Virus record (IMG/VR): IMGVR_UViG_3300025131_000033 | Span: 1-63,741 of that record | Source of the DNA: a virus | Strand: one strand, 5' to 3' | Length of the DNA stretch: 63,741 bases | Shown: positions 12,116-63,078 of the stretch, piece by piece | How the letters are laid out: each line of letters begins with the position of its first letter | Numbering within the stretch: position 1 is the stretch's first letter | Made by a program: the position numbers and the translations under genes | The notes under the pieces: model-generated | Database searches by the model: none | Told to the model about the DNA's origin: nothing | The model's input: only the letters and a program-made list of their open reading frames with translations

Positions 12116-12225
12116 ATTCGACTCAGGATTACCGCAAGCAGGTTGGAGTATACTTCTCCAACGTGACGAGGATACATACCAAGATCCGTCTGACTAAAAT
12201 CACAAATGAACACATTCGATTCAGG
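12030..12225. repeat. 98-bp imperfect tandem duplication inside the capsid gene
   Basis: Two adjacent 98-bp copies (12030-12127 and 12128-12225) differ at three positions: two synonymous and one Ile/Val change. Because 98 is not a multiple of 3, the duplication breaks the capsid reading frame. Coding-type differences between copies point to two related strains joined in assembly rather than a living frameshift. Confidence 0.85.
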
Positions 12226-20200: not shown

Positions 20201-20430
20201 CACACCCACCAAGTTGCCCACCCAGGACCAACAGGACCAGGGCCTGGAGGACCAGTACCATCTCCAGGAGCAATAAATTTGGGAATCACAGGGGGAGGCA
20301 CTCCAAATTGTTCTCCACCACCACCACCGCCCCCAGGACCATCTATAACTAGAGGTAAAGGATAGTCGAGAAAATTTAGAAGTTCTCCTTGCCCAGGTAA
20401 TAGTTGTCCACATGCAAAAGAAGGAGCCAT
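17254..20430 (-). CDS. Large Gly/Pro-repeat virion protein with two cysteine-rich modules
   Basis: The 1058-residue protein has three parts. Near the N-terminus are two similar modules, W-x-C-T-G-P-P-Q-W-R-C followed by YKSREQCIIHC, and W-L-C-T-G-A-P-N-W-R-C followed by HKTKGACVVAC, each with four cysteines. A long glycine/proline repeat (units of GVKTPGPTGGG and GGKFVGILPPNTGVIPKVGTPG) spans about 200-370. The remaining 650 residues are mixed alpha/beta without a recognised fold. Two 120-bp identical copies lie at 19375-19647. It is probably an exposed fibre or decoration protein, since it heads the adhesin cluster. No family is named with confidence. AAGGAAA lies before the ATG. Confidence 0.55.
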   Translation of the reverse strand: MAPSFACGQLLPGQGELLNFLDYPLPLVIDGPGGGGGGGEQFGVPPPVIPKFIAPGDGTGPPGPGPVGPGWATWWVCTGPPQWRCDGITQSIELPPPPGGYKSREQCIIHCVGAVAPKTGGGGSGGGTPPGGGGGPLTPRTVTWWLCTGAPNWRCKPVNIDVDQPPPAGAHKTKGACVVACKAPEGPFTPRYDRTGGGKFGRIQPDPPEPGGGAGGWNPGVKTPGPTGGGVPGGAGGWNPGVKTPGPTGGGTPGGGAGGTNPGVKTPGPTGGGTPGGGAGGKFVGILPPNTGVIPKVGTPGPSGGGVPGGGAPGVKTPGPTGGGTPGGGAGGKFVGILPPNTGVIPKVGTPGSSGGGGGGTPPGLGTYPFQPISTPSENGAGGSLPAQGAPLTEGLGMMPVTAPLIEETRQGTTVLNLNNPQMNTFVAKNYPTGLLDPATAIMSKNPTTGPIVDNDILRTDIFKRNINKSIFYIHKHNNTFEDWRPGALSDLTTQNIILNLQPSFLKTLRSITRIDGLPLSDREIAFIVKSRVVNGTIDNLRADQFTLLGQQKSNITPIIRNSNPVINTIAALNLIDLHKIPLDPNSLPSNSKQKDIAKNWKTLATDTGKYIPCVINGEAKKFYIGDDDVVVQRANLTLNDGDFVIVNGKRLYAKSQVGHSYTLPVPYQQQILNLLGGTGEKTLTVSSTDATDLEYNYSLNLSGEAPLPDFMFFKIVLSSIYTTQSPASPFLKSTTAAYELIDYTTAAGLAAVQDWIKYKMNYGVQFIDYDDPFAYYASSTGTFSVTREDFLPATNKTNPDHPNLVRNIPWSYILFPSNRDEYLVQGNKSVLTSLDSTGKAIRTLTASPTLNKEFTEDRRTQWIEYKNAYNEGTTNVFQNSEDLNARVAVFNPDLPIFKTGYRVGNKVGSAVTQKPSRTKTTLRLVNEIIKELNANYVIKKQGGGVSLLEWDVISRLSAMEFNKFVALENVNLLWPKLRDGLVENITIYPSTKMSGGVDTHTQLDRRRSTGVFPDKFAPVMSLIDDVGVYVLPPATTRPNSSAFGVPSTKASSSSRTR
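19375..19647. repeat. Two 120-bp direct repeats in the Gly/Pro region
   Basis: The segment 19375-19494 recurs as 19528-19647, offset 153 bp (51 codons), so the frame is kept. It encodes the GGKFVGILPPNTGVIPKVGTPG unit and its flanks. Further partial copies of the GVKTPGPTGGG unit continue to about 19800. In-frame repetition is typical of elastic fibre segments. Confidence 0.8.
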
Positions 20431-26200: not shown

Positions 26201-26960
26201 AAAAATTATCATCAGCAGTATTACCTAAATTTCCAGGCGCAAAATTAGCTACTGTATTTTGAATACCTACAGTAAGAGGAGCTTGTTTACTTTCTAAATC
26301 GGGATATAAGAAAGTGTATACAGAACTTAGTCTGGATCCTCCTGATTTATTAGTGGAATCCGTCACGGTTAATACAGGAGAAACTACATTAATTCCTGAA
26401 GTACAAACTCCGTTGGTCTGCCCTATACCAGAAAATAAAGTAGCACTTAAATCAGCAGCGATAAATTTCGTTATTAAAGGAACACTCACATTGTAAGTAG
26501 GAGTAGTTACACCCATTATGCAGGAAGACGTAGTATAAACTTTAGAATATGCTCTATTTATAATTTCAATAGAACCCCCCTCTTCAATTCGGAAATTATG
26601 TAGCTCTAATTTCCCTAAATTTCCAAAATTACAAACTTCAATTAGAACAGGGAAGCGTACAATTTTAGGAATAGCTGCTATACAAGAACTTAGATCAGTG
26701 AATAGATTAGAATTCGCCTGTAAGCTCGCAGTATTAGCATCTGCTGATACTGTAAGAGCAAAACCAGTAAGCCCTGATGTGGGGAATCCCGCTTGCTCCC
26801 ACGACTCATAAGTTCTTTCTTCCAAATCATATAGGGGCATATTATCCTGCTCCCAGTTATAGAAAGAACTTGTATCAAATTTAGCTACAGTTGGAGTCCA
26901 TGAATTATAGAGCTTTACGCTCCCACTACTTGTATAAATATCGCCTGCTCTGAATACCAT
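23226..26960 (-). CDS. Beta-helix virion protein, possible polysaccharide-binding or -degrading spike
   Basis: The 1244-residue protein begins SFYNWEQDNMPLYDLEERTYESW, sharing DNMPL with its downstream neighbour. From about 280 to 720 it is made of short repeating strands with regularly spaced Asn (VTNSDVVLENCAAVRCREAGFKFNNSKVMLSRS..., ELYNSNLNLVGLLDVYSNPEGIVVENS), the pattern of a right-handed parallel beta-helix as in tailspikes and pectate-lyase-like depolymerases. No catalytic residues can be assigned. The C-terminal 450 residues are mixed beta. It is probably an exposed spike or fibre that binds or cuts host glycans. Confidence 0.6.
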   Translation of the reverse strand: MVFRAGDIYTSSGSVKLYNSWTPTVAKFDTSSFYNWEQDNMPLYDLEERTYESWEQAGFPTSGLTGFALTVSADANTASLQANSNLFTDLSSCIAAIPKIVRFPVLIEVCNFGNLGKLELHNFRIEEGGSIEIINRAYSKVYTTSSCIMGVTTPTYNVSVPLITKFIAADLSATLFSGIGQTNGVCTSGINVVSPVLTVTDSTNKSGGSRLSSVYTFLYPDLESKQAPLTVGIQNTVANFAPGNLGNTADDNFFFGVDPYENVNTDNTIGTSYDFSCINPLDDGLMRRAAPTINTSAGGSVYLNHLMKLSIKNCDGPIYVRNFVVDGYNQTVNTGRPTGIEVTNSDVVLENCAAVRCREAGFKFNNSKVMLSRSAFAYRNYDLSADNARYPDRGIGFHAVNSDVTLSANLSATVERAVPGEFQGSGIDVMMCASRNTTGMRLDNSKFTGGVGRSVSNNIQTGGISTFELNSKNGIELYNSNLNLVGLLDVYSNPEGIVVENSNLKYRDLCVEDQQHTGLVATNSKISVDSSAYPGAAGQTRSRQTDFSHNGQHIDLQSNSHFTFVKKPNIPNLYGNMSFLYAHGRETYTGASQPVLTYPAINVENSKADFLNAYILPRDVDNATIAPQYGLAVRAINNSTVDFYGTKNGATFIIGPTTYVTQQYAAGIYAKNNSTLGLHGPTFIGQFGVDALVEDNSVLNINPPIEKATYLPAVSAFDLSDTGNHTSVELHSTRACLVANKNSTINLENLGAFDHCWDNSPTGRTVMDYGVDYDIQSPYGLSGLFGAGCLQFFPNPQNSNAMGDNDFANLSANNGPGNKALTQFRALISPTFTTHTTNTDGNPNVINQFTVAQDYYGGAFPATGGDMRRACVGGVCVRATGDSQVNAINVNFPIGLNSTPMDGIYFNVSGTECDRLMIWNFADTSRLNASYCSVSAMYPYDVGYHGPSAVWASATMPDNSAETDAGVAASGAPSSTPETGILSVLDTFGAGSSVWYAPSGVGFNEPFGRFITVSSSYNNNNTIGGNPLQEITHAGIAMSGLGFVGQVSTRMDGTDAGIYGAGVDTYENQGVFRLYFSTKPETKLLQNDMSGYHNGTPLGHEFYGVLGPAYQVYSQCYNMSGPLSALMTDPNNAFSNISGTYPNLLKLSHDSDGDGIFDSLWTSGFYYCEEFVDDNPTQCLLDESAANTFANAKNASIGMSGRPKKVTIYRARASDQIGAEANEGNASATVGFKSSNIFDLKRDN

Positions 26961-27613
26961 TAGAAATTAAGTGTCCATCTAAATATTAAACTAAAATCAC
27001 TAGTTTTACGTATGTTGCTAAAAGTTCGATAAGCTACCAAAATAGAGGCAGTAGGACTACTATCCCCCCTCGGATTCTTTGCCAATAAACCAATCTCATT
27101 AAGATATGTCTCATTTGATTGAGAATCCGCTAGACCATTACATGCTTCATCATCTACCACTATAGTATAACGCACAGAATTATCTGCTATTCGTGTAACC
27201 TTATTTGCAGGAATTAATCCAAAAGCTACGCCTGTGGTATCGTTTTCATTAGTCATTTGAGTACCTTCCGCTATAAACAAATTACTTTCTGATCCATAAC
27301 TAGTGGTAGCCCCTCTTAAAGTTAAAGGACCAGACAACTGGTAAGTAGTACTAGTTTCTAAAACTCCTGTAGCTACATTAGTTGATCTCCCTGACACCCC
27401 TAATTGAAATCTGTCTATTTGATAATCTAAAACTACATGAGAACCTGAGGCTGTAAATAGATAAGCTAAATTAACCCCCATTCCTGACACAATAATATTG
27501 TGATCATCAAAGAGAACCTCTTCAACCCCATCATTATATCTTTTAATAATGGTCAGATGTCCATTAATACCTAATTCATCTGTAAAATTTTTCATAGGAA
27601 GTGCAATCTCCAT
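26960..27613 (-). CDS. Putative fibre-module structural protein
   Basis: The 217-residue protein is beta-rich. NGHLTIIKRYNDGVEEVLFDDHNIIVSGMGVNLAYLF near the start and SDFSLIFRWTLNF at the end match, in weaker form, the ends of the upstream 395-residue protein (DNLIVDGAGTLLADIM and LLIKWRLHFL), so the two are probably paralogues. An internal ATG at 27595, which overlaps the previous stop as ATGA, is an equally plausible start; the longer form from 27613 has no ribosome-binding site. It is likely a virion surface protein; function is unknown. Confidence 0.5.
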   Translation of the reverse strand: MEIALPMKNFTDELGINGHLTIIKRYNDGVEEVLFDDHNIIVSGMGVNLAYLFTASGSHVVLDYQIDRFQLGVSGRSTNVATGVLETSTTYQLSGPLTLRGATTSYGSESNLFIAEGTQMTNENDTTGVAFGLIPANKVTRIADNSVRYTIVVDDEACNGLADSQSNETYLNEIGLLAKNPRGDSSPTASILVAYRTFSNIRKTSDFSLIFRWTLNF

Positions 27614-31700: not shown

Positions 31701-33321
31701 TGTGAGAAGCTTCCCATGCAGCTATCTGACCCCTCTCCAAGGCCTGCCTTTTAAATACCTCATACCCTCCATCCTGAGGTCTATGAACATGAAAGGGTTT
31801 CATTCCAGGCTCATTAGTAATTGTATATAATTTTGTTATGTCTCCAAAATCATCGAGTTCGTATAGTTTACTAGTAGGCCAGGGCTCTCCTGCTATTAAA
31901 AAGTAAGATGGAAATTTTTTATATAAATCTAATAAGATTGAATCTGTTACTAATTTTAAATTTCCCTCTAAACTACTTGTATTATATAGAAATACTCCCG
32001 CCTCTACAGCTAACCCAGGTGTCCAAGTGGTCAAATCCCTAAAATAAGGAGATTCAGTAGCTAAACTGTACCAAATTAAATGAGGAATATAAGATTCCCA
32101 TAACTCTTGTACTCTTCCCGAAACATCCAAGACCGAATCAACAATTAAATGATCAACGGCAAACTGTATAGCGTTTAAAGTTCCCTTTTTCTTTTGAAGA
32201 TTTACAGCTTCACGTAATTGCTGTCTCCATTTAAAAGCAGACCCACCCCATAGCTTGAAACCTATTAACTCTGCTAAATATTGTAAGTGCTCACTTTCAG
32301 CATTTTCTATATCATATATAAGACCTACTTTTTCTACCTGATCTGTTACATCAGCCATACTGAACCCAAGTCCAGTCAAAAATTTCCTTAAAGGTCCTTT
32401 AGATACAAAATCTACTAATTCCGTAGACGCTCCAATGTAACTATCAAAAGCATCCTTAACTGTAAAATCCTGCTGATCAATATATAAGGGAGAATAAATT
32501 ACATCTATTAAAGTTAGTAAATTTTCTAGCTTTTGAGTTCCACTTGTATAAGTAGCTGGGATGCCTCCTGCACTTGGGGAGTACACAGCATCCGTCGCCC
32601 CCGAAACATAAGTATCATCTATTAATCCTAAATTAGAAAATACAGTACAGGTAGCATAATTTCTCCATATAAAATTTTCGAATCCTTTAATTCCATCAAC
32701 TGTCTCAAGCTCGTTTCCCAAGTACAACGAATTTAAGGAACTTAATACGTATCCCGATGGTTCCCAATTGAGGCCACCGCCCGCAGAGGTATTAAGAAAA
32801 TAAAACCATCCTAATTTATCTATAAGATAATTATGAATACTACTTCCATCTGTACTTCCTGTAAGCCCAGACAAATATGCTATGTTATCTCCTACTCCTC
32901 CCCCCTGAGATCCAGTAGTTAGTGTAATTGCAGGTAAGAAAGTCCCTGATAGAAAATTATTAAAATCTGTACTCGTATCATAATGAGCTAGAGTAGTATT
33001 AAGAGGAACAAGTATTTGAGAATCAAAAGAATAAGGAGTAACTTTTGTTAGTTCATTTTGTTTTACAAAATAGGGAGATATTCCACTGATGTTATCTATA
33101 GAAGAAGTTGACGAATTTGGTACGGCTGAAATGGAGAGTACCTGCGAGATGTTATTAGCAGCCCGTAAATTAGTATTAATAATACGGGAAAGGGGATTTA
33201 ATTCTTGTCCACTTAAAGTTAGATCTTCTTCCAAATATAATTCAGGAATTACTGTTTCAAGTAAATCACCAAAATTACGCTTGGCATAAGTTCTAGGATT
33301 AGGTGTAAATTTATTACTCAT
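28780..33321 (-). CDS. Giant baseplate wedge protein with a P2 gpI-like domain (gp7 position)
   Basis: The 1513-residue protein follows the gp25 and gp6 genes, the place of T4 gp7 (1032 residues) and P2 gpI. Residues of about 330-400 (EKVGLIYDIENAESEHLQYLAELIGFKLW, KWRQQLREAVNLQKKKGTLNAIQFAVDHL) are typical of the tail protein I family, in which the protein helps link wedge and fibres. The remaining 1100 residues are beta-rich and aromatic and may carry fibre-binding domains. The start overlaps the stop of gp6 by 1 bp. The wedge role is likely, with large lineage-specific additions. Confidence 0.65.
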   Translation of the reverse strand: MSNKFTPNPRTYAKRNFGDLLETVIPELYLEEDLTLSGQELNPLSRIINTNLRAANNISQVLSISAVPNSSTSSIDNISGISPYFVKQNELTKVTPYSFDSQILVPLNTTLAHYDTSTDFNNFLSGTFLPAITLTTGSQGGGVGDNIAYLSGLTGSTDGSSIHNYLIDKLGWFYFLNTSAGGGLNWEPSGYVLSSLNSLYLGNELETVDGIKGFENFIWRNYATCTVFSNLGLIDDTYVSGATDAVYSPSAGGIPATYTSGTQKLENLLTLIDVIYSPLYIDQQDFTVKDAFDSYIGASTELVDFVSKGPLRKFLTGLGFSMADVTDQVEKVGLIYDIENAESEHLQYLAELIGFKLWGGSAFKWRQQLREAVNLQKKKGTLNAIQFAVDHLIVDSVLDVSGRVQELWESYIPHLIWYSLATESPYFRDLTTWTPGLAVEAGVFLYNTSSLEGNLKLVTDSILLDLYKKFPSYFLIAGEPWPTSKLYELDDFGDITKLYTITNEPGMKPFHVHRPQDGGYEVFKRQALERGQIAAWEASHSDGPLGYGVYMAEEAHPDPAPGATHLYLSATGDLTFFFNYRNHVNYPIPPFEEIKYYKDCSLNPGLVSVLRERLECFGVPPSFASSVESFILDKGITDDTNLGSLNDFLMFFSSVQTPPNYNDVVGRISEYQNNLLGLWNGKSSHLFLDFDNTDFDFAKTTYEGDSKYALYNASRVAKTYSPGHSIVKTNLNASALDPYDISSTRWSYLSLDKDDNFVSYGSGSVLAGFEFSGLDMGGQAPGTKDGRGGLNTFQRTDVDNLTTDPLLNGLSYLSTGATGRRAIRRRNFRYTLPTEGYYDRTGFNSPHSWDPSTIEYSMFGKPAAGGEEAPGTPTLASGMGENTLGYVPSAGKFFPIVDPINPSGVWHACEDLNSTRAFSGVITNTTFPYRGLSALGSNAKWDEFSASTARYVDRGQIPPIYITMHKFFDKKASFYADLDASTTPNSYWKNEHQSYMNSAIASGLVLNSFDDYRNFAFGRGVQDLNKDYNKYFLNPLGAREVDETGGNIFAQVFGKGLYNCDFSVEGSAVVASGVDYIASSVDTGRAIDSSPSGVFSKYAVASYVVGIDNVPASGTYIASGAEDCVVPLSGYEFVSGAPYNGEFRNPHILSGVEFCNTSGSPIGNAFYIFNIDKVYKKQEEENYLIGNPVIKCKTAAGLPRIRFDLSSYGKRRNYFIKNHKFKLKIKALIAEENSPQMGGGQMGVWIHTQPIFDPLTGSGYMWSWTSKGKWEMQDSYKTAKSDVISYSHLFGFPPKQTPPGTETFCLFNTTESVDVVNNVTLNNIRDEYFDTFELNFDTRNYTIYNNYEHQDIIPIPDRFYKLRDEVHRDDTNYIVEIFFMTPAVPEKYMLIDTISLEDSTQRDNAGIRTGTGVPTLGTPLRPFVTEDRLDYDKDQLRDTLKFFKGLSGSGTGLYATNLAGRDWQSGPNVNASLEKSDLGVSGGSRLNYRLHPQVMVFAKQSSFNNYTLIQTDN

Positions 33322-34925
33322 CAGTCTAGTAAACTAATATTCAATGTAAGATTATTTAATTGTATTATTTCATTAAAATCTACTGAAATATCAGTATTAA
33401 AATTATCTACAGTAGAGAATCTAATAGCATCAATTTCAAAAATACGTCTATTCAATTCAGTAACATATAAGGTTTGTCCAAAACTCATATTTTCTACATT
33501 CATATAAGTAAGAATTTTATCCCTAGCTCTAGCTGCTATTGCATCTTGTCGAGCTTCGTCTTTCTTATCAATATAAATAGTTACTATAAGATCTAAAGTT
33601 CTAATTAAACCATCTACAATTACAATCTCATCCGTTGCCATCTTCTTTTTATTAATAGATGTTAGCAGTTGAGTTTTGAAGGTAGGGGTAGCTTTCTGGA
33701 GTTGTACATCAGAGGCTTTTTCTAGTACATAAATATCAATAACATTAGCTGAACTATAAGCTTTTCTAGTGGTAGCGACAGCTTTTCCTATAGTACCAAA
33801 AGTACTAATAAACGTATTTGCAAAAACCATATAATCTTCTAAAGTTACAAGTCTATCCTGTCTCGCAAAAGTAAGGGGAGCCCATTTTTTAGCATGCTCT
33901 ACTGTTTCAGCATTCGCCCCTCCTGTAGCTATGGAAGTATTTGTGATAGCTCCTGGTCTAGCTACTCCATTAGTTGTAGCTATTGTAGTTGCATTTATTG
34001 CAAATGGATTTACGTTCCCTCTAGACCCTCCTCCCACTCTATATGTGACAAAATATGACGCAGTATCATCAGGAGAAATTCCTACTGTCCCATCCCCAAA
34101 TACAACTGTAGCGTTATAATTAGTTCCCTCTATTAGTTGGAATATCCTATCGGAACCTCCCGAAGCGAAATAAAGATTATCTACTTCAGTATAAACTCCC
34201 GAAACACTTGAATCAGGAGACGTAACAAAAACTTCTACACTTCCTTCAATGACAGGAGCTTGAGTTAGTGGAATTGTTTTAACTCCTTCCGTACTCCCAA
34301 AACCTCCTGAATCTGTAACTAAAACTCCCTCTTGAAATACTAAATTACTGTAAACAGTTTCTACTTCAGGATTGTCACTCTCTGTATTATACAAAAGAAT
34401 ATTTCCTGTAGGATTTGCTTTATCCACCAACCCATTTACTACCTTATATAGAGTATACGTCACAGAACCCCCATCCTCAGGAGAAGTAATACTTACAGTT
34501 CTAGCCGTAGGAGGAAGAGTATAATAAGCCTGTCCTCCTATATCAGCAGGGGGATCAGTAAAAATTATTTGTGCGTTGGCTGCGGCTGATAGAGGCCCGC
34601 GCATTCGCACCCCCACTAATTGAAGTAATTTTTTTATACTAGACCGCTGTTGTGCCGTAGCAAAAAAGTTTTCGTTAGCTAACATATCTGCTTTCATGGA
34701 CATTACAGATCCCATATAAGCGACTAATTCAATAAATACCATTCCTAAATCAGATTCTACAAAATAAGTATACTCTAAAGGATATACAGCTTTTATATAT
34801 TTAATTAACGAATTTCTTAGAGAAAGATAATCCGTAGCCGCGAAATCAATAAGAGATGGCCTCTTCCCTATAGGGAGATGGGCAAGATTCATAAAATCCG
34901 ACGCTATTGTTCCAGAAAAACTCAT
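33321..34925 (-). CDS. gp6: Baseplate wedge protein (gp6/gpJ-like)
   Basis: The 534-residue protein has the family pattern at its start: LIDFAATDYLSLRNSLIKYIKAVYP, then SDLGMVFIELVAYMGSVMSMKADMLANENFFATAQQRSSIKKLLQLVGVRMRG. The middle is beta-rich (FGDGTVGISP, the gpJ-like beta block) and the C-terminus has TYMNVENMSFGQTLYVTELNRRIFEI. gp6 builds the inner ring of the baseplate and triggers sheath contraction. T4 gp6 is 660 residues. It overlaps the gp25 stop by 4 bp. Confidence 0.85.
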   Translation of the reverse strand: MSFSGTIASDFMNLAHLPIGKRPSLIDFAATDYLSLRNSLIKYIKAVYPLEYTYFVESDLGMVFIELVAYMGSVMSMKADMLANENFFATAQQRSSIKKLLQLVGVRMRGPLSAAANAQIIFTDPPADIGGQAYYTLPPTARTVSITSPEDGGSVTYTLYKVVNGLVDKANPTGNILLYNTESDNPEVETVYSNLVFQEGVLVTDSGGFGSTEGVKTIPLTQAPVIEGSVEVFVTSPDSSVSGVYTEVDNLYFASGGSDRIFQLIEGTNYNATVVFGDGTVGISPDDTASYFVTYRVGGGSRGNVNPFAINATTIATTNGVARPGAITNTSIATGGANAETVEHAKKWAPLTFARQDRLVTLEDYMVFANTFISTFGTIGKAVATTRKAYSSANVIDIYVLEKASDVQLQKATPTFKTQLLTSINKKKMATDEIVIVDGLIRTLDLIVTIYIDKKDEARQDAIAARARDKILTYMNVENMSFGQTLYVTELNRRIFEIDAIRFSTVDNFNTDISVDFNEIIQLNNLTLNISLLD

Positions 34926-35389
34926 TTAATTAATACCTCTACATCAAATACAGCCAAATCTTCCTCAATAAGTTGAAGAACTAGTGTAACTTTTAAGGAG
35001 TTCCCCCCCGCAGGGCCTACCTCCCCGAAAGGAACTACAGACAATTTTACTATTCTAGCTCCTATAATATATCTACCAAAGGAGTATAAAATTTCTCTTT
35101 TAATAGATTCGAAGGTTGATTCCGTTAGAGGCTCAAACAAATACTTGCGTAAATTACAACCAAAACGAGGAAGCATAAGACGTTCCCCTTTTTGAGTTCC
35201 TAATAATTGCCTAACTGAATCTCTAATAAGATTTCTTCCACTCTCTCTTTTTAGAAAACCCCCCGTATCTCTTCTTTTTCCAAAAGGAAAAGTAAGTCCA
35301 TAAGTTACCCTTTGGAGTTCAGCCGTATTCCTATCTAAAGGTGGAAAATATGTAGTTCCATAAGTCGTTACAGTTTTATTTATTCCCAT
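34922..35389 (-). CDS. gp25: Baseplate wedge protein (gp25/gpW-like)
   Basis: The 155-residue protein is of the gp25-like lysozyme-fold family: a central VRQLLGTQKGERLMLPRFGCNLRKYLFEP block containing the R-x-x-x-P-R-F-G loop that joins baseplate to sheath, followed by FESIKREILYSFGRYI and a beta C-terminus. gp25 nucleates sheath assembly on the baseplate. T4 gp25 is 132 residues. The order gp25-gp6-large wedge is conserved in contractile tails. Confidence 0.88.
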   Translation of the reverse strand: MGINKTVTTYGTTYFPPLDRNTAELQRVTYGLTFPFGKRRDTGGFLKRESGRNLIRDSVRQLLGTQKGERLMLPRFGCNLRKYLFEPLTESTFESIKREILYSFGRYIIGARIVKLSVVPFGEVGPAGGNSLKVTLVLQLIEEDLAVFDVEVLIK

Positions 35390-35401
35390 AGATAAACTCC
35401 C

Positions 35402-37375
35402 TTAAGAGAAGGGTTCCTTTCTTTGGTCTAGGTAATTATTAAGAGAATTTAAGAGTGCATAATATACCCTGGCTAACATCCAGTCTGCATTCCCCTGATC
35501 CCCTTGATCGGCCTCATTTAATAACCATGCTAAGGGATCTAATGTATCAGCCTGACCACCAAGTTTTGCTGGCATAAGTAAATCATGTAATTCATACGAA
35601 TCATAATCTGTACCATCAGCATTTTTTATATGGTACACTTCATCCAATCCTGAACCTTCCTGATCCACATACCCGCTAGTAGGTCTTATTAACTTCCAAA
35701 CACCACCGCTTGCATTAGGTAGACTGCTGTAAACCGCTGTCGTATCAGCCCCAGAGGTTTGATAATGTCCCCATTTATAAGGGCTGGCGCTTATACTTAA
35801 TCCCCGTCTTCTCTCCCAAGGTTGCGTAGGATTACCACTCATACTACTATCGTTAATCAGGTCATTATCTACATCAGTAGTAACTAACGCACCAGTCGAA
35901 CCTGCGGGGGATGAGTCATACTTAGCTTTCTTCCCTGTAAAGGTTCCTTGAGTTGCCGATGTTATTACCCCATCAACATCAAAATCAGTAGCTGCTGATG
36001 CAGTAGAATTACCCATCGTCTTAAATACTTCAGCAAATGAGTAGTTCCTGTTATTAGTAGGAGCACCACTTAAAACAGGTAAGAAAGAATGTCCCTCAAA
36101 TCTCTGCGGTAAAGGTCCAGTTAAAGGAACATTTTCTTTAGTGATTCCAGCAATTTGTGCTATAGTAGCATACATATCAACAGCATCTACAAAAACATCA
36201 GTAGTTCTATTTCTTTCTGTAATGAATGAAGCACTTACAATAAGAGGAACTCTGGTCCCTCTTTCATAAACTGAATCCTTCATTCCTCTAGCCTTGTCTA
36301 GATCTCCCCCCTTTCTATTAGGCAAATATGTTTCTCCTTGACCCTGAAGCCACTTCGTATATACAGGGCCTAACCCACTATTATCCGCGTCATTAGTGCC
36401 CATGCCGCCACCCCCATTATAGAATCTGAGAGCACTAGCGTAGACATTCATAGTGTCCATGTTATTATAATCAGACCCGTTATCTCCCATAAAGATGAAA
36501 ACAGTTCTACTTTTCTTTGTTTCATCAATAGAGGAAAGGAAAGAACTTAACATCCAGTCCATATCTTCCACCTGAGCCATTTGGTTCACCCAAGCTGCAC
36601 TAGCATTAACACCCGCTTCGTCCTCCTCTGTTATTGTAGCTGGCGTGACCCTTGACTCCTGATAGTAACGATCATAATTTCCTTGAATACTATTCGAGGA
36701 AAAGAAAAGATCATTGTTATAAACCATAGCACTAGGAGGATACGTATTCGGTTGATGTGCAGCGTTTAAGGGTAAATATAAAAAGAAAGGTTCTTTTAGG
36801 TGGTTGTATGTATCAACTGCTTCAGCTATAGTTTTATGAGTTGCGTAAGAGGAAAAATCTCCTTGATTGTATGCTATCCTATCCTCTGGAGAAGTCCCAC
36901 CCCCTGCTGCGTCGGTTCCTGAAAGAGATTGATCAAATGAAGTGTATCCATAATCAGAAACAGTTAGAACTGTTCCATTCTTATTCATATAATAATTTAT
37001 ATACCCCATTTTTTCATCATGAACGCCTTGTCCTGTTTCCCAATACGCAGCCCCATCCTTAGTTGTAAGATCATTATGTCCTGGCATTGGAGGTTTATTC
37101 AAATTCCAGAACATGGCTCGATAATCATCCCACTTCCCTACTGCTGATATATGATCCCAGCCTGTGCCAGAAGCTGATTGAGGTGTAGGATAATCACCAT
37201 TATACTCATAGTAGGAACCTAATTGATCCCACTCAGCTAAATGCCATTTTCCAACCATCCCACTTCTGTAACCTTTTGATCTTAATAACTCAGGTAAAAT
37301 CTTAAAGTTAACTCCTGAAGTCCAAACAGACTCTCTGCCATCAGCGGAACGAACAATTTGAGATAAAGGCTTCAC
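35402..37375 (-). CDS. Sulfatase domain, C-terminal part of the LamG-sulfatase virion protein
   Basis: This frame continues the sulfatase begun in the fragment at 37372-40725; its GTG start is an artefact of the 116-bp duplication. Visible motifs are MVGKWHLAEW (K43, H45), NAAHQP (H207), FIFMGDNGSDYN (D298, N299, metal ligands) and GMKDSVYERGTRVPLIV (K366, sulfate contact). These match the second half of the arylsulfatase active site in the alkaline phosphatase superfamily. In the joined 1735-residue protein they fall at 1121, 1123, 1285, 1376, 1377 and 1444. The end is Tyr/Ala-rich, without recognised domains. It would hydrolyse sulfate esters, probably on host surface polysaccharide; the substrate is unknown. 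Confidence 0.85.
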   Translation of the reverse strand: MKPLSQIVRSADGRESVWTSGVNFKILPELLRSKGYRSGMVGKWHLAEWDQLGSYYEYNGDYPTPQSASGTGWDHISAVGKWDDYRAMFWNLNKPPMPGHNDLTTKDGAAYWETGQGVHDEKMGYINYYMNKNGTVLTVSDYGYTSFDQSLSGTDAAGGGTSPEDRIAYNQGDFSSYATHKTIAEAVDTYNHLKEPFFLYLPLNAAHQPNTYPPSAMVYNNDLFFSSNSIQGNYDRYYQESRVTPATITEEDEAGVNASAAWVNQMAQVEDMDWMLSSFLSSIDETKKSRTVFIFMGDNGSDYNNMDTMNVYASALRFYNGGGGMGTNDADNSGLGPVYTKWLQGQGETYLPNRKGGDLDKARGMKDSVYERGTRVPLIVSASFITERNRTTDVFVDAVDMYATIAQIAGITKENVPLTGPLPQRFEGHSFLPVLSGAPTNNRNYSFAEVFKTMGNSTASAATDFDVDGVITSATQGTFTGKKAKYDSSPAGSTGALVTTDVDNDLINDSSMSGNPTQPWERRRGLSISASPYKWGHYQTSGADTTAVYSSLPNASGGVWKLIRPTSGYVDQEGSGLDEVYHIKNADGTDYDSYELHDLLMPAKLGGQADTLDPLAWLLNEADQGDQGNADWMLARVYYALLNSLNNYLDQRKEPFS

Positions 37376-37501
37376 CCCACCACTAAACCTTTTGATCTTA
37401 ATAACTCAGGTAAAATCTTAAAGTTAACTCCTGAAGTCCAAACAGACTCTCTGCCATCAGCGGAACGAACAATTTGAGATAAAGGCTTCACCCCACCACT
37501 A
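37270..37501. repeat. Exact 116-bp tandem duplication inside the sulfatase gene
   Basis: 37270-37385 and 37386-37501 are identical. The unit is 38 codons plus 2 bases, so the duplication shifts the frame and splits one gene into two. Both copies encode VKPLSQIVRSADGRESVWTS and its flanks. Perfect identity and a length in the range of short-read assembly overlaps suggest an assembly artefact; a very recent real duplication is the alternative. Confidence 0.9.
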
Positions 37502-40500
37502 GCATCATACAATATGTACTCATTCCCTAATCCTTGAAGACCTCCCCATAACTTTTCAGACTTAGTAGTTCCTACAGTACCCATACCATGTCCCCAATAT
37601 CCCGACACTTGATCGGATATCTTGAAATTAGGACTACTAAAAGCCTGCTTACCTGTTAAAATAGATGCTCTAGTAGGTGTGCATAGTGGTGTAGCGTGAG
37701 CATTCATAAATGTCACCCCGTTTACAGCTAAACCACTCAAAGTAGGAGTATGGGGGTAAAGATTTATTCCATCAGTTTCATGCCCTGGATCTAAATTACT
37801 GAAAGGAGATGATACACTTTCAGCAACACCAAGATCATATGGATTTTGAGAGTGATACATACTTAAATTATCTATTCCTATATCATCAACTAAGATTAAT
37901 ACAACATTAAATCCTTCTCCTGTTAGATAATTAAATTCATGTAACTTTAGATCAATATTTTTAAAGTAACCTCTTTGAGCCTCATGGTTATTTCGCACCT
38001 CAAAATCATTAATAGGTTTTCCATAAAACTTGAGACTTCCTAAATGCCCCTTAAATCCACTTTGGAGCCCTCCTCTGTCTCCTCCCATAAAATTACCATA
38101 TTGATACATACCATCAGTATAGCCACCCCCAACTATCCAAGGAGTATAGAATGGGTTTAAACGGGGTCCTTCCTGGAGTGTAGACGGACCATCTACTGTA
38201 GTTGAAGAATATTCAAAACTATTGTCCTTCTTAAAAGAAGGTAAATTTGGAGTTGTAAAGGCATCTACACCAAATACAGCGTCAATACCAGACGTAGTTA
38301 CTAAAGATCCGTCTACATAGAATCTTATTTCATTTGTAGTAGGATTTAGGGTGACATCTACCAAAATAAAGTTAGAAGAAACATTTCCAAAGGCTGTATC
38401 TACTAAATCTACCTTCATTTTATAGAAAGTAGCTACATTTTCGCACACATCCTTATTAATCCATGAACAAGACGAAAAATCCCGTGATTGCGTAGGAGCT
38501 ATAAAGAAACTTAATGACGATGCGGGGTCATTTTGTTCATTATTATTACTATAACCTGTATTTTCTTGTGAAGATGCTGGGTCATTTTGTTCATTATTAT
38601 TACTATAACCTGTATTTTCTTGTGTAATACGCCTATCCCGTGTAAATCCCATTACCATCCCACGAACAAATTGATCTCCTCGATCATTTTCTAGATGATC
38701 GAGGTCTCTAGGTACTCCTTGATGATCTAACGCCGATGCTCCTTCTTTCGCTCCCACATTTTCACACCCTAAAATTACTTTTGTTAAGGAAGAAGCAGTT
38801 GCACTGGCCCATCCATCCCCTGCATTTGTAATATCTGGAGCATATGCCCAAAATTCAATGGAAAATCCACTAGGATTATATGTTAAATCTCGGAATTCAG
38901 AAGTATCAGGCAATCTACTAAAGGATCCCATAGCCGACGCGCCTATATTGTTAGTTGATTTATTCTTAGTAATCCCCTCAAAATAAGGAATAGAGAGTCC
39001 ATATGGGAATACACTAGGTCTATTTGTCCCTAATAATTTAGCATTATTGTACTGATCTGTAGTAGCACAGTTAGTTATGAAATAATCAGTAGAAGAAGGA
39101 GTTACTAGCTTAGTTTCTAAGAAATTATAAATAGCAAAAAGATTTTCAGTAGCTATTTGATCAGTTAAAGAGAGAATTGTTCCATCCTGAGTCCCTGAAG
39201 CACTATAAATAATACTGCCTTTCCCTACTTTAGGAACATGGAGATGCCGAAAACCTATAGAAGCGGGTTTAGGAGGAGCTTGAACGAATGTTGTCTGAAT
39301 AGGAAGTACCATCCCTGTTACTTCTCCTTGCTCAAAGACTAATGCCTTTTGTTTCTCTAAATCTACGGTTAAATTATATTCTTCTAAGTAGGCAAAGTCA
39401 TTGATTGGCACCTTTCCCATAGCAAAAGGAGGGGATGTACCTGACGGTCCATATATTTGAGGAGCTTTATAAGCTATTTCTATCTGTTTTTTCCTTCTAT
39501 TAATCTTACTATTATGATTAGCTATTTCAGATATTATCTGTTGCCTCTGATTTTGGACAATTGATGAGTCATCTCCGTATTGAACAATATAATCCTGTAA
39601 ACTTCCAGATAGATCATAAATATGCTTATCCCTTTGTCCTAGTAGGACATTTAAAAAGTGATCTTTATCATAATTAGCTTGCATACCTAAACTATCGTCA
39701 ATTCTAAAAACATCAAATATATTTTCAGTGAATTTATTAAGAGATTTTATGGAAACTGCGTCCCCTTTTCCCCCTAAGTTGGGATCATAATTATAAGTCC
39801 ACGCATCTCCAACGGGAACTATCCCCGAAATAGCTAGAATAATAGGATCAAGTCCTCCCGTTTGAGAATCGTAGTAAAGACCGTCTGATGTGAGAATATA
39901 TTGCCCAGTAGTAGCAACAGGAGGTCCATAAACTAATCTAAATACATCTCCTTCGGCATCCTCTATTTCCTCGTCTTCTTCTAACCCAGGGTCAGGAACG
40001 GCACATCTCGGAAGATTTGTTCCTGAGAAAATCCAATCAAATTCAGGAGAATCTGAGAAACAAGGCTCTAACTCTGGATTAGCTTGTCTCTCCTGAAAAA
40101 CTCTATTAATCTTCGCAATCATATCATTACAATTATTAATGAATTCTGATGCATTGTCAATTCGTGCCTTAGCCCCAGCATTCATAGTAGTTATGAGGGC
40201 ATCTTGTTCGTCAGGAGATAAGGAAGCATTCATAGTACTCGAATTTCCACTATTAAAAGATTCAAGATCCTTAAGTTTATTAAAACAATCAATTATACTA
40301 TTTACCTGATTGCTAATATTTTCATAATTTGCATACAAAGTGGCCGCCCCTGCTGATATAGCACCAAACCCTGCGGCAAGAGCGTTTATTTCACCCAAAA
40401 TACTTAGATTATCATTATCCATCCCCAAATAACCATCATTTACTTTGAATTGAAATAAACCTGTATCAGTATTAAATTCAATAAGTCCATTATCTGCTAA

Positions 40501-40725
40501 TTCTGTTTTTACCCATTTTGAAATATCAGACATTGCATTTGCTTTTCCTTGAAGGAAAGAGTCCTGTATACTTCCTAATACACCCCCAGGCAACAAACTA
40601 AGAGCATCTTGAGCTAAACTAAACAAACAAGTAGGAAGTCCCCATGACATTCCTATAGATTGAAATAAGCCTGCACCTCCTATTTGCTGTATTCTTAAAT
40701 ATGAAGTAAGATCAAAAGCACCCAT
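37372..40725 (-). CDS. Virion structural protein: LamG-like domain plus sulfatase N-terminal half
   Basis: The frame encodes 1113 true residues of a protein that continues in 35402-37375. Residues 1-600 are a structural region with a hydrophobic start and coiled segments (RQQIISEIANHNSKINRRKKQIE). Residues of about 600-925 are a concanavalin A/LamG-like jelly roll: FSIEFWAYAPD, EIRFYVDGSLVTTSG, GHLGSLKFYGKPINDFEV. The sulfatase begins at 938: NVVLILVDDIG (D947, D948 bind metal) and CTPTR at 1015-1019, the C-x-P-x-R site whose Cys becomes formylglycine. The gene lies between spike and gp25, within the baseplate run, so the enzyme is probably on the virion. The last four residues are frameshifted. 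Confidence 0.85.
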   Translation of the reverse strand: MGAFDLTSYLRIQQIGGAGLFQSIGMSWGLPTCLFSLAQDALSLLPGGVLGSIQDSFLQGKANAMSDISKWVKTELADNGLIEFNTDTGLFQFKVNDGYLGMDNDNLSILGEINALAAGFGAISAGAATLYANYENISNQVNSIIDCFNKLKDLESFNSGNSSTMNASLSPDEQDALITTMNAGAKARIDNASEFINNCNDMIAKINRVFQERQANPELEPCFSDSPEFDWIFSGTNLPRCAVPDPGLEEDEEIEDAEGDVFRLVYGPPVATTGQYILTSDGLYYDSQTGGLDPIILAISGIVPVGDAWTYNYDPNLGGKGDAVSIKSLNKFTENIFDVFRIDDSLGMQANYDKDHFLNVLLGQRDKHIYDLSGSLQDYIVQYGDDSSIVQNQRQQIISEIANHNSKINRRKKQIEIAYKAPQIYGPSGTSPPFAMGKVPINDFAYLEEYNLTVDLEKQKALVFEQGEVTGMVLPIQTTFVQAPPKPASIGFRHLHVPKVGKGSIIYSASGTQDGTILSLTDQIATENLFAIYNFLETKLVTPSSTDYFITNCATTDQYNNAKLLGTNRPSVFPYGLSIPYFEGITKNKSTNNIGASAMGSFSRLPDTSEFRDLTYNPSGFSIEFWAYAPDITNAGDGWASATASSLTKVILGCENVGAKEGASALDHQGVPRDLDHLENDRGDQFVRGMVMGFTRDRRITQENTGYSNNNEQNDPASSQENTGYSNNNEQNDPASSLSFFIAPTQSRDFSSCSWINKDVCENVATFYKMKVDLVDTAFGNVSSNFILVDVTLNPTTNEIRFYVDGSLVTTSGIDAVFGVDAFTTPNLPSFKKDNSFEYSSTTVDGPSTLQEGPRLNPFYTPWIVGGGYTDGMYQYGNFMGGDRGGLQSGFKGHLGSLKFYGKPINDFEVRNNHEAQRGYFKNIDLKLHEFNYLTGEGFNVVLILVDDIGIDNLSMYHSQNPYDLGVAESVSSPFSNLDPGHETDGINLYPHTPTLSGLAVNGVTFMNAHATPLCTPTRASILTGKQAFSSPNFKISDQVSGYWGHGMGTVGTTKSEKLWGGLQGLGNEYILYDASGGVKPLSQIVRSADGRESVWTSGVNFKILPELLRSKGLVVG
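38519..38626. repeat. 54-bp in-frame tandem duplication in the LamG-like region
   Basis: 38519-38572 and 38573-38626 differ at one base and encode the 18-residue unit QENTGYSNNNEQNDPASS twice (residues 702-737). The reading frame is kept. It is the third tandem duplication in one window, so it may share an assembly origin with the two frame-breaking ones, or it may be a real loop expansion. Confidence 0.8.
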
Positions 40726-40728
40726 TTT

Positions 40729-41994
40729 TTATTCAACTCCCCCTTCTCCATAATTAGGATAGTCAGAACCAATAATTGGAATAGCGGGAAGAGAGAGTTC
40801 AGAATTTAAGTGAATTTGTGTTCCATCAGCATTAATGTTACCTCCAGATTGAATATTAACATCTCCTCCTGCCGCTAAATTAAGATTACCCGTTGCTCTC
40901 ATATTAATAGTTCCATTACATTCTATATCTATATTTCCCGCTGACTGTATCTCTACCTTTCCCGAAGATTTAATTCTAATAACACAGTCACCACTCCCAT
41001 ACCCTGGTCTTGGAACTACTGTACCTACTCCTTCACCTCTAGTTTGAAGTTGAATCACTTGTTGTGACCCTCGGGTATTTAGGCACTCAAGAAAAATTCT
41101 TCCAGTTCCAAAGCCGTGAGTGGGAGAATAATTATCTTGTTGGCTTGTATCAGTAAAAATATTTACATCTTTGAACTTACTTTGAATATTTATATTTCCA
41201 TACTCTGCATTACTTGCAATAGGAGGAGGTAGCCATTGAATAGGAGGAGGCAACATGGATTTTTTAGATCCTGTAGACGAATTGAGGATATTAAGCTCCT
41301 TACCATCTTGAATTTTTATAGTTGTAGTTCCCCCTGCCGAGTCATATAATTGATCTCCCGCACTTTCAACTTGAATTTTTGACATTCCAGGAGCAAACAG
41401 TGAAGGATTACCTATTGCGGCGAAATGTTGGTTAGATAAAGTTATCCTACTATTATTTCCACTATCAAGTATTATGGAATCAACACCAGGAGTATCATCT
41501 AGAGTAATTTTCTTTCCTAGAGCGGATACTAGCTCAGTTTTCCAATTATAAAACGAATCATTATTCTCTTCAGCTATTATCAACCCTCCACCATGGGATC
41601 CTCTGAAACTTTGTCGCATAGGAAGTCCCTTAGCTCTAAGAGATTTAGAATCCGCAGCCGCATATGGGCTTACTGTAATCTCATCAATTTTTCCTCCTAC
41701 GATGGAATCATAACTAGGGAAAAAAGTAGATCCTAAGTAAAAGTATTTTTCTGAATGACTAGGTTTACATACTAAAATTATATTATCCACTACAGGAGGA
41801 GCTATAAATCCCCCTTCTGTTTGTGTTACCCAGGGTGAACAGTACCAGACTGTTTCAGCCCCAGAGTCTAGTCCTGGAAAAAAGATTTCCGCTTTAAACG
41901 ACCCAGTACTTCCTGGATCATAGATAGAAACCACTTTTGCTAAACAAATAATAGTTCCGGCATATGATTGAGCTTCAGATTGGGGTGTAGTCAT
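40729..41994 (-). CDS. gp5: Central baseplate spike (gp5/VgrG-type, beta-helix needle)
   Basis: The 421-residue protein has an N-terminal OB-fold-like segment (IICLAKVVSIYDPGSTGSFKAEIFFPG, a common opening of gp5 and VgrG proteins), a middle domain, and a C-terminal run of short V-x-I-x-x-x-G repeats (KVEIQSAGNIDIECNGTINMRATGNLNLAAGGDVNIQSGG, split here only for reading) typical of the triple-stranded beta-helix needle. No lysozyme domain like that of T4 gp5 is seen. As a trimer it would form the membrane-piercing spike, capped by the PAAR protein at 7579-8391. It directly follows the hub gene. Confidence 0.75.
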   Translation of the reverse strand: MTTPQSEAQSYAGTIICLAKVVSIYDPGSTGSFKAEIFFPGLDSGAETVWYCSPWVTQTEGGFIAPPVVDNIILVCKPSHSEKYFYLGSTFFPSYDSIVGGKIDEITVSPYAAADSKSLRAKGLPMRQSFRGSHGGGLIIAEENNDSFYNWKTELVSALGKKITLDDTPGVDSIILDSGNNSRITLSNQHFAAIGNPSLFAPGMSKIQVESAGDQLYDSAGGTTTIKIQDGKELNILNSSTGSKKSMLPPPIQWLPPPIASNAEYGNINIQSKFKDVNIFTDTSQQDNYSPTHGFGTGRIFLECLNTRGSQQVIQLQTRGEGVGTVVPRPGYGSGDCVIRIKSSGKVEIQSAGNIDIECNGTINMRATGNLNLAAGGDVNIQSGGNINADGTQIHLNSELSLPAIPIIGSDYPNYGEGGVE

Positions 41995-54292: not shown

Positions 54293-54435
54293 CATGTAAA
54301 GACACATCCTTTCAGAAGCGGCTGTAGCTCAGTGGTAGAGCGCGACCTTGCCAAGGTCGATGTCGGGAGTTCAAATCTCCTCAGCCGCTCCAAAAATCAC
54401 ATGCTAAACTAGCACGTAGCTACGCACCTTTTCAG
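54273..54435. repeat. 43-bp imperfect direct repeats flanking the tRNA
   Basis: 54273-54315 and 54393-54435 agree at 35 of 43 positions; both contain AAAATCACATGCTA and end in TTTCAG. The copies are 120 bp apart and the second starts directly after the CCA end of the tRNA. The unit therefore looks like one leader-tRNA cassette followed by the leader of a lost second one. Confidence 0.7.
54318..54392 (+). tRNA. tRNA-Gly (anticodon GCC)
   Basis: A full cloverleaf can be drawn: acceptor GCGGCTG/CAGCCGC, D arm TAGCTCAGTGGTAGAGC, anticodon arm CGACC-TTGCCAA-GGTCG with anticodon GCC, T arm GGGAG-TTCAAAT-CTCCT (one G-T pair), discriminator T and an encoded CCA. It follows uvsW and the 75-residue gene on the same strand and would be processed from that transcript. 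It would support GGC and GGT codons in the phage's many glycine-rich virion proteins. Confidence 0.95.
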
Positions 54436-54472: not shown

Positions 54473-54706
54473 TCATTGTTCTACCTCAGGTATAACTATT
54501 GCTGGGTTAGCTAATTTTAGCTTTAAACCCCAGTTCTCCATATCTCGTCTCGTCCATTGATCTTGTAATTTATCTGTTAACGTCTCTAACTTATAATTTA
54601 TAGAGTTTAGCTCATTACTAATCCATAAAAGTCCTGTACAGATAATTATTACCAAACCTAATGGCAGTAGAGTATCTTTATTTATAATTGTTTTCTTTTC
54701 TGTCAT
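54473..54706 (-). CDS. Small single-span membrane protein, holin-like candidate
   Basis: The 77-residue protein has a short basic start, one hydrophobic helix at about 14-32 (LPLGLVIIICTGLLWISN), then an amphipathic/coiled segment and RRDMENWGLKLKLANP. Small one-span proteins next to late genes can be holins or spanins, but no endolysin is adjacent. It follows the fibre gene by a 1-bp overlap. The membrane location is fairly clear; the lysis role is speculative. Confidence 0.55.
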   Translation of the reverse strand: MTEKKTIINKDTLLPLGLVIIICTGLLWISNELNSINYKLETLTDKLQDQWTRRDMENWGLKLKLANPAIVIPEVEQ

Positions 54707-56478
54707 TAAGCTAACCTTTGTACGAATACTGTAGAACCTTGCATTAATTGAGCATTGTCCCCCGATCCCGAATTGATGGTTACAGATAAGGGTTCAGTTG
54801 TCCTTGCAAAACCCACCCAAGTTCCTACAAGATTGTGAGGATCAGTTACACTATGTACTCTAATATCAAACCTGTGAACTAGGGTTGAGCCTGTATAAAA
54901 GGACACAGTAATAGTTATGGCAGCACCCACCTCTGTAACCCCAACAAATTCCACTTTATATACCCCATCTGCGCTAACAGCTAGTTCAGAATCTTCATTA
55001 TTCCATAAATAATATCCATCTTCACCGCCCCGACCGACAGAGGAAACTCCCTGAACCGCAGTCCCCGCCCCAAAACTAATTTCAGAAGTTCCTGCTGTCC
55101 CATCTCCTACAGCACTTAAGAAGCAGAAAGCTCCAGGAGGAGAGGGGCAACTTAGTGAATCTATAGTAGGTAATGCTCCTGTCATAGTAGCTACTGAATT
55201 TTGAGAAGAGACAACAAGAGTTTTATTTAGCGTAGGAGTTCCAGTTACCGTAAGATCTCCCGTCATGTAAGTATCTCCACTTACTCCTAAATCACTTCCT
55301 ATATTTGTATTTCCATCAAAAGTAGAAGTTTTATTTTTAGCAGAACTTAGATCAGCTTCAAATTCAACTCGCGTTATATTACTATCCGTTGTTACTACAG
55401 TAGGAGCCTCTAGTGGCTCCCCGCCCGAATTTTTAGGAACAATCGGCAATTTGGTCATAATAAATCTTGTATTAACATAATCATACAGAAATATATTATT
55501 ACCTGTAATGTTCGCCTTAGTTTTATCGTCTCCAGGCCCGAATCCAGATACATAAACAGAAGAAGGTTCATTATTAAAAATAACAGGTAGGAGAATTCCT
55601 CCACTCACTTCAGCAGCAGATACATCCAAACCGTAGTCCCCGTATCCCTTCAATAGAGGATACGAGTCTGCTGTATTTCCTAGAATAGATAATTCATCAG
55701 TAAGATCTGTTTTTATTCTAGTAGCCGAAAGTTGGGTACAATTTTTAATTGACCTATCCCCCATATCAATATTGCCGCCCGCGCCTTCAGTTAGTACTAG
55801 ACCTGATACAGTAAGCACATTCCCAGCAAGCGGCAGATCCAAGATTGCTGATGTTCCTCCCATAACCCCTACATTATCAGAGTTAACCCCTATACTTGCT
55901 GTATTAGCAGCTATATCAGTATCGTTAGCAGTAATATTAGTGGTATTAGTACCAATATTCGTATTTAAAGTAGCAGCACTAGCCTCCGCAGCACCAGGGA
56001 ATAAATTCAAGGCTACAGCACTTGTATTTAAAGTAGCAGCACTAGCCTCAGCAAGCCCAGGGAATAAATTCAAGGCTACAGCACTTGTATTTAAAGTAGC
56101 AGCACTAGCCTCAGCAAGCCCAGGGAATAAATTTAGGGCACCCACACTCGTATCAAGGGTTGCTATATTAGTTGCATTAGTAGCAATGTTACCCGACACT
56201 GTTGAAATAGCTGATGTCGCCCCTATATTTGCAGAGGCCCCTTGAGCATATAAAGAAGCTCCTTGCCACAATCCAGAAATAGATCCAGGAACCGAGGCTG
56301 CTCCTCCTTCATCCCATTTAGCTGAAGAATCTACAACTTCTTGAATAGCACTCCGCACAGGAGTTGGAAAAATAGTACTAGGAGTTACATCTCCATCAGC
56401 TACGGAAAATTGAGCTATAGCTGAAGGATCTCCACTATCGGGGTCTGTTGAGACGTATACAGGAAGTTGTTCAACCAC
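54706..56478 (-). CDS. Repeat-containing tail fibre-like protein
   Basis: The 590-residue protein has an N-terminal part followed by three near-identical 21-residue repeats (SAVALNLFPGLAEASAATLNT), then N-I/T-x-N-x-T coiled-coil-like stretches (TNIGTNTTNITANDTDIAANT), beta-strand repeats (NTNIGSDLGVSGDTYMTGDLTVTG) and a C-terminal beta domain. This architecture is typical of trimeric phage tail fibres. Its N-terminus, MVEQLPVYVSTDPDSGDPSAIAQF, would attach to the virion. The tip should define host binding; no specific receptor can be inferred. Confidence 0.65.
   Translation of the reverse strand: MVEQLPVYVSTDPDSGDPSAIAQFSVADGDVTPSTIFPTPVRSAIQEVVDSSAKWDEGGAASVPGSISGLWQGASLYAQGASANIGATSAISTVSGNIATNATNIATLDTSVGALNLFPGLAEASAATLNTSAVALNLFPGLAEASAATLNTSAVALNLFPGAAEASAATLNTNIGTNTTNITANDTDIAANTASIGVNSDNVGVMGGTSAILDLPLAGNVLTVSGLVLTEGAGGNIDMGDRSIKNCTQLSATRIKTDLTDELSILGNTADSYPLLKGYGDYGLDVSAAEVSGGILLPVIFNNEPSSVYVSGFGPGDDKTKANITGNNIFLYDYVNTRFIMTKLPIVPKNSGGEPLEAPTVVTTDSNITRVEFEADLSSAKNKTSTFDGNTNIGSDLGVSGDTYMTGDLTVTGTPTLNKTLVVSSQNSVATMTGALPTIDSLSCPSPPGAFCFLSAVGDGTAGTSEISFGAGTAVQGVSSVGRGGEDGYYLWNNEDSELAVSADGVYKVEFVGVTEVGAAITITVSFYTGSTLVHRFDIRVHSVTDPHNLVGTWVGFARTTEPLSVTINSGSGDNAQLMQGSTVFVQRLA
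55961..56149. repeat. Three 63-bp tandem repeats in the fibre gene
   Basis: Units start at 55961, 56024 and 56087, each 63 bp (21 codons), with only a few differences. They encode SAVALNLFPGLAEASAATLNT. The frame is preserved; copy number changes would lengthen or shorten the fibre shaft. Confidence 0.8.
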
Positions 56479-62385: not shown

Positions 62386-63078
62386 ATGGAAATCTACGCC
62401 TTAATATGTACCCGCTCTAGAACAGATATTAGCGAAACTACGGATAAACTAGTCTCCTTTTTATCTAGGTGTGGTATAAAAATTACTTTAATAGCAGGAG
62501 CGCAGTCTCTATTTCGTGCTTATAAGGGTGCATTTGAAAAAAATAATGCAAATCCAGAAGATATTATCATAATGTGTCATGATGATATAGAAATTAGAGA
62601 AAATCCCACTACTTTTATAGAAAAAGTTAAAAATACGCTAGATCGAGATATGGTAGCCTTCGCTGGTCCCGCAGGAACCACTTTTTTAGACAAAGATGCT
62701 ATTTGGTGGGAACAAGGTAGGTGGCAAAAGGGGTTACATAAAGGAAAAGTCACCCACATTGACCCTAAAGGCAAAGAATACTTAACATCCTACGGTCCTC
62801 CTGACGATGTAGTAGTATTAGATGGTCTATTTTTAGCTGCAAAAGCCAAAATGATCAGAGAAATTGGGTTAGATAAACCTGATTACTTTACAGGGGAGTG
62901 GGATTTCTATGATCTTCATTATACCTCCACTGCTTTTTTAAAAGGATACGTAAATACAGTTATTGATATGGATATTGTCCATCACTCCAGAGGTGAATTA
63001 GTAGGTAGAGACTCCTGGCACCTAAATAGAGCCGCTTTTATCGAGAATACTGAACTTCCTCTAAAAATATTTAAGTAG
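62386..63078 (+). CDS. Glycosyltransferase-like protein (GT-A fold)
   Basis: The 230-residue protein resembles small phage GT-A enzymes: MEIYALICTRSRTDISE, then IIIMCHDDIEI (H65-D66-D67, the D-x-D-type metal site), FAGPAG, VVLDGLFLAAKAKM, GEWDFYDLHYTSTAFLKGY and DIVHHSRGEL. It might add sugars to phage DNA, virion proteins or host glycan; the acceptor is unknown. It is alone on the plus strand amid late minus-strand genes, with the promoter-like element directly at its start, so it is probably expressed at a different time from terminase. Confidence 0.7.
   Translation: MEIYALICTRSRTDISETTDKLVSFLSRCGIKITLIAGAQSLFRAYKGAFEKNNANPEDIIIMCHDDIEIRENPTTFIEKVKNTLDRDMVAFAGPAGTTFLDKDAIWWEQGRWQKGLHKGKVTHIDPKGKEYLTSYGPPDDVVVLDGLFLAAKAKMIREIGLDKPDYFTGEWDFYDLHYTSTAFLKGYVNTVIDMDIVHHSRGELVGRDSWHLNRAAFIENTELPLKIFK

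Follow-up and report, generated by a model that had tools for sequence, protein, structure and literature searches.

The stretch of DNA analysed here (the window) is IMGVR_UViG_3300025131_000033, a 63.7-kb virus fragment carrying the gene set of a T4-like contractile phage: tail tube, sheath, head–tail adaptor, major head protein, head protease, portal and large terminase, together with the gp25 and gp6 baseplate genes. Its terminase is only 31–35% identical to those of the best-ranked isolates, which sets this lineage far from isolated phages. Within the baseplate cluster, two ORFs that together encode a LamG-like protein joined to a sulfatase lie between a spike/hub-like gene and gp25. These genes share the minus strand and form an operon-like run whose order is kept in relatives. 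The features of the locus are listed in window coordinates.

40729–41994, minus strand: spike/hub-like baseplate gene, upstream (PHROGs baseplate assembly / hub).
37372–40725, minus strand: first ORF, 1117 aa, with structural N-terminus, LamG-like domain and start of the sulfatase (intact in the homologue L001).
38926–40725, minus strand: N-terminal region, residues 1–600, conserved by alignment in the baseplate-cluster LamG protein family.
38515–38622, minus strand: near-exact, in-frame 54-bp (18 aa) tandem duplication in the LamG region (copies 38515–38568 and 38569–38622).
37948–38928, minus strand: LamG/concanavalin A-like domain, about residues 600–926, where the protein ends in most relatives.
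37372–37926, minus strand: first part of the sulfatase, residues 934–1117 (PF00884, E = 1.5e-7).
37681–37683, minus strand: codon of Cys1015, the predicted formylglycine site (signature match PLCTPTRASILTG).
37270–37501, minus strand: exact, frame-breaking 116-bp tandem duplication (copies 37270–37385 and 37386–37501), absent from L001 and L002.
35402–37375, minus strand: second ORF, 657 aa, with the remaining sulfatase and C-terminal subdomain (PF00884, E = 3.5e-22).
34922–35389, minus strand: gp25-like baseplate wedge gene, downstream (PF04965, E = 6.7e-11; phrog_261).
33321–34925, minus strand: gp6-like baseplate wedge gene (phrog_219, E = 1.9e-38).
26960–27613, minus strand: 217-aa tail-cluster protein, which in the window has no sulfatase (phrog_5417).

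Elsewhere in the window, a 1058-aa tail-cluster ORF (17254–20430) contains Pro/Gly-codon-rich tandem repeats, their units being 153 and about 66 nt long (19359–19803), probably a fibre-like repeat, and a 63-nt unit occurs three times in tandem at 55961–56149 within ORF 54706–56478. A glycosyltransferase-like gene (62386–63078; PF13712, E = 3.8e-9) adjoins the terminase, and there is a single tRNA-Gly (GCC) gene at 54318–54392.

Tandem duplications and the split reading frame

The first ORF stops early at the 116-bp tandem duplication. An earlier note on this DNA, made from the sequence alone, had described the coordinates, the minus strand, the duplication and the split frame as we found them, and had read the two ORFs as a single frame. 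Five natural full-length fusions (L001, L003, L043, L045 and L063), uninterrupted and 1682–1753 aa long, agree with that reading. Rather than remove the duplication and mend the gene, we searched the two window pieces separately and made use of these natural intact copies.

Two of the relatives, L001 and L002, are independent contigs from other samples with near-identical sequence, and both are uninterrupted at the 116-bp site; L001 encodes the whole fusion as a 1717-aa protein and does not have the 54-bp LamG-region duplication. The major head protein of the same record is also split, into ORFs 12082–13308 and 11540–12115, by a 98-bp, 97%-identical tandem duplication (window 12030–12225), and a relative (L149; the record of L043) has this gene as one unbroken frame. 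Because the near-identical relatives are uninterrupted and the capsid gene is broken by a similar duplication, the 116-bp frame break is very probably an assembly error; the 98-bp duplication is a probable assembly artefact as well. We infer that the near-exact tandem copies in this record are strain variants joined during assembly.

The sulfatase module and its LamG-like anchor

On the two window pieces, the Pfam sulfatase domain PF00884 matched model positions 2–62 (E = 1.5e-7) and 77–301 (E = 3.5e-22); on the intact copy the match reached model position 301 of 301 with E = 2.6e-31, a homology to sulfatases well above chance and in line with the complete enzyme that the earlier note had proposed. 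The first part of the module holds the metal ligands D947/D948 and the C1015-T-P-T-R site, C-x-P-x-R being the site where Cys is converted to formylglycine. The second ORF holds GKWH (K1121 and H1123), H1285, D1376/N1377 and K1444. These residue numbers, which had been given in the earlier note, proved exact when verified through the intact L001, allowing for the 18-aa duplication missing from it. The two PROSITE-type sulfatase signatures, C/S-x-P-x-R-x2-hydrophobic2-[TAR]-G (maturation) and G-[YV]-x-[ST]-..-G-K-W-H, are present both in the window and in L001, and 200 shuffled versions of the window proteome gave no match to either.

The active-site set DDCPRKHHDNK, comprising the metal ligands D, D, D and N and the catalytic R, K, H, H and K, is identical at 11 of 11 positions across the ten modules that span every one of these sites, although the modules are only about 37–57% identical to the first. 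In a PDB profile search the best match was the Pseudomonas aeruginosa arylsulfatase (1hdh, E = 5.2e-25); H, D-N and K line up within the parts to which the HMMER alignment limits this comparison. Past the Pfam domain, the protein carries a W-K-L ... E-L-Y-x-L ... D-P-x-E-L pattern, as in sulfatase C-terminal subdomains. The structural model of the sulfatase is poor (pLDDT 35), and its best 50 Foldseek matches in the PDB are all sulfatases. Across an alignment of 12 modules, conservation was nowhere high enough to support a pattern scan. Between close module pairs dN/dS is 0.21–0.32, and the module is under purifying selection. Domain identity and a complete active site mark the module as a full type I sulfatase.

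Residues 1–600 of the anchor are helical in the model and gave no Pfam or PHROG match and no known domain. For the following region, the LamG-like assignment made earlier draws support from the fold, the N-terminal/LamG model (pLDDT 52, low to moderate) matching mainly ConA-like/LamG phage proteins in Foldseek, but it is weak by sequence, with Laminin_G_3 reaching only E = 0.0048, below the cut-off, in a single relative (L009). Clostridial neurotoxin receptor-binding domains ranked first in the PDB fold search (TM 0.09–0.35, about 10% identity); we read this as a shared jelly-roll fold that is abundant in the PDB rather than as kinship, for which the sequence search gave no sign.

Relatives of residues 1–926 are encoded in 512 of 571 candidate IMG/VR stretches, the best 80 being kept. 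In the loci analysed, most of the LamG-domain ORFs (108 of 129, with some redundancy) end within 20 residues after the domain, and the remaining 21 all continue into the sulfatase; these 21 represent eight other records and the window, several being represented more than once. Because the LamG protein is common without a sulfatase, we take the anchor to belong to the core proteins and the enzyme to be an optional addition. A genome-contig scan with the LamG protein recovered just two contigs, one from a Prochlorococcus single cell and one from an Altibacter MAG, whose 32–35% identity is too distant to name a host. The former (L137, 130 kb) is a T4-like phage contig within a single-cell genome, with the same baseplate gene order and a 35%-identical LamG protein that has no sulfatase.

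Two fusion sites in one baseplate gene cluster

We found the sulfatase module in 17 more virus records, where its fusion partner is one of two proteins encoded within a single conserved baseplate gene cluster. In one group of records (clade A), it follows the LamG protein between spike and gp25, as in the window; a ninth further clade-A record (L049) shows the sulfatase end alone and then gp25. In the other lineages (B), it ends a paralogue of the 217-aa tail-cluster protein. The eight B records (L004, L005, L048, L051, L052, L152, L153 and L155) carry modules at about 30–44% identity, some of which miss one strict signature pattern yet keep the catalytic residues. An unfused paralogue directly follows the B fusion wherever the contig extends far enough, and L048 and L155 also encode the LamG protein, which there has no sulfatase attached. 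Tandem pairs of unfused 217-aa paralogues are likewise seen in records without sulfatase (L018, 20295–21556; L021, 20271–21531), which shows that this gene can duplicate independently of the enzyme. In 13 sister records of up to 92 kb, we found no sulfatase elsewhere in the record.

This survey of related phages, which the earlier note had called for, thus recovered the LamG protein both with and without the sulfatase, and added a second fusion site that the note had not foreseen. The position of the sulfatase gene between spike and gp25 was borne out by PHROG and Pfam matches and by the conserved order in relatives; domain searches, synteny and the natural intact homologues all support a LamG–sulfatase fusion in the baseplate region of a contractile phage.

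In a tree of virus lineages built on the gp6-like wedge gene (window 33321–34925), the carriers of the LamG fusion form one clade (SH-aLRT 96), and the other carriers fall in distant lineages. In a sulfatase tree rooted with Bacteroidota enzymes, the LamG fusions again form one clade (98/96), nested among the B modules, and the viral modules group apart from the sampled Bacteroidota sulfatases. On these trees, clade A derives from one gain that lies inside B. Most simply, the module would have been transferred a single time, from a 217-aa-type tail protein to the LamG protein, a direction that is tentative because the outgroup is narrow and has long branches.

Beyond these records, neither window ORF had a tblastn hit at E ≤ 1e-5 among 50,697 phage records. 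Permissive searches returned weak matches only, to unannotated fecal records and to bacterial-looking ‘phage’ records annotated as sulfatase, and no sulfatase tail protein among isolates. A distant match to the functionally unannotated PHROGs family phrog_19870 (E about 1e-6 to 1e-5) indicates that other phage-encoded members of the superfamily exist. When the sulfatase was the query, the genome-contig scan turned up no relative in cellular genomes; the Bacteroidota genomes gave weak sulfatase matches (best 54 bits).

Proposed role in entry and known systems

We consider it probable that this T4-like contractile phage carries the fusion in its virion as a polysaccharide sulfatase that depends on formylglycine and acts at entry. 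Its gene position and the fusions suggest that the sulfatase is part of the tail, and the attachment of the same module to a second tail-cluster protein points to a role in the virion. The baseplate-region anchor and the LamG-type glycan-binding domain would hold the C-terminal type I sulfatase in a virion protein; glycan binding is a known property of LamG-type domains in many proteins. In the infected cell, the Cys of the C-T-P-T-R site would be converted to formylglycine by a maturase, probably that of the host, bacterial formylglycine-generating enzyme (FGE) or anaerobic maturases acting in the host cytoplasm, where the phage protein is made. The matured enzyme would then be assembled into the tail. 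On the next cell, the LamG domain would bind sulfated surface polysaccharide and the sulfatase would strip its sulfate ester groups, so that the tail could engage the sugar layer or get through it. This model assumes a host with a sulfated surface polymer; virion incorporation, maturation, activity, substrate and a role in entry are what we infer for the sulfatase. There is a precedent in phage G7C, whose tail carries an enzyme that takes off no more than a decorating group, without cutting the polysaccharide, and is required for infection (PMC10743462).

As the earlier note had reported for the phage sequence, we found no FGE in the window, and none in 13 carrier records. All 14 are fragments, and we therefore go only so far as to call it plausible that activation of the sulfatase depends on a host maturase. 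Some phages do encode FGE, namely Pseudoalteromonas phages and UViGs (PMC10232697).

The anatomy of the fusion would be identical if the enzyme, carried in the virion, acted instead at release or on extracellular sulfated polymers such as algal mucilage or host exopolysaccharide, freeing progeny from decoy glycans. Receptor-destroying enzymes on virions follow a known logic, but an enzyme at the baseplate, close to the spike, would more likely act at the cell surface, and we regard this alternative as unlikely. It is less likely still that the sulfatase fold has been kept only to bind sulfated or phosphorylated glycans, with the Cys unmatured and no catalysis: although carrier records in which no maturase was found would fit such a protein, every catalytic residue (K, H and the Cys of C-x-P-x-R) is kept across strongly diverged modules, and a pure lectin would not need them.

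That the enzyme cleaves phosphate mono- or diesters rather than sulfate, as in the phosphonate monoester hydrolase (PMH) branch, seems to us highly improbable. The superfamily and Cys motif are the same and PMH chains appear with weak scores among the PDB matches, but the best matches are sulfatases, the W-K-L...E-L-Y-x-L...D-P-x-E pattern in the C-terminal region is of sulfatase type, and the metal ligands are sulfatase-like (D-D...D-N), whereas PMHs have D-Q...D-H. We give just as little credence to a real frame break with two products, a LamG protein bearing a truncated sulfatase and an inactive remainder. The break is present in the record as assembled, but the site is uninterrupted in near-identical sequences from two other samples (L001 and L002), and the comparable duplication breaks an essential capsid gene that is intact in the record of L043.

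The tail enzymes described so far from phages either cleave polysaccharides or take off acyl groups, and sulfated coats are common in the sea. If an entry sulfatase is indeed carried on the tail, it would extend phage tail enzymes to sulfated coats and represent a virion enzyme whose catalytic residue needs a dedicated modifying enzyme before assembly. A two-part rule for host range that can be tested would follow, requiring both a sulfated coat and a maturase, and through these two traits uncultured carrier phages could be linked to hosts; the phage modules could also supply new sulfatases for sulfated glycans. We are evenly divided on the broader proposal of a new virion-enzyme class, exchangeable formylglycine-dependent tail sulfatases that move between tail proteins and for which the previous host's maturase and coat sulfation would set the host range. 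Tail-borne glycan-modifying enzymes are known, as are sulfatases, and what appears new is their combination, which our tblastn search of 50,697 phage records did not find at E ≤ 1e-5; a literature search, with thin coverage of subscription journals and preprints, returned no description of a virion sulfatase.

With type I sulfatases (PF00884; 1hdh; the carbohydrate sulfatases S1_15/S1_16, 9bau and 9fo1) the phage module shares C-x-P-x-R, both signatures, the metal ligands, the catalytic K/H set and the C-terminal subdomain pattern. It differs from them in its size, about 800 aa against 450–550 aa, in being fused to phage tail proteins and in having no signal peptide on inspection by eye. The LamG/ConA-like virion proteins of T4-like cyanophages (S-PM2 Q5GQW3) give a ConA-like fold match to the anchor model, at an identity of only about 12%, and the S-PM2 structural protein is not known to contain a sulfatase. 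Phage-encoded FGE genes likewise link phages with the sulfatase maturation pathway, but as a maturase only, reported as an auxiliary metabolic gene without a virion sulfatase (PMC10232697). A parallel in logic is the deacetylase tailspike gp63.1 of G7C, which likewise removes a decorating group from a surface glycan, as we propose for a virion-borne phage sulfatase. That enzyme is an esterase on a podovirus tailspike, whereas here a sulfatase is joined to baseplate-cluster proteins of a T4-like myovirus and, unlike the deacetylase, needs a post-translational maturase. Between the otherwise near-identical phages G7C and Alt63, the catalytic domain of the tail enzyme has been exchanged (PMC10743462).
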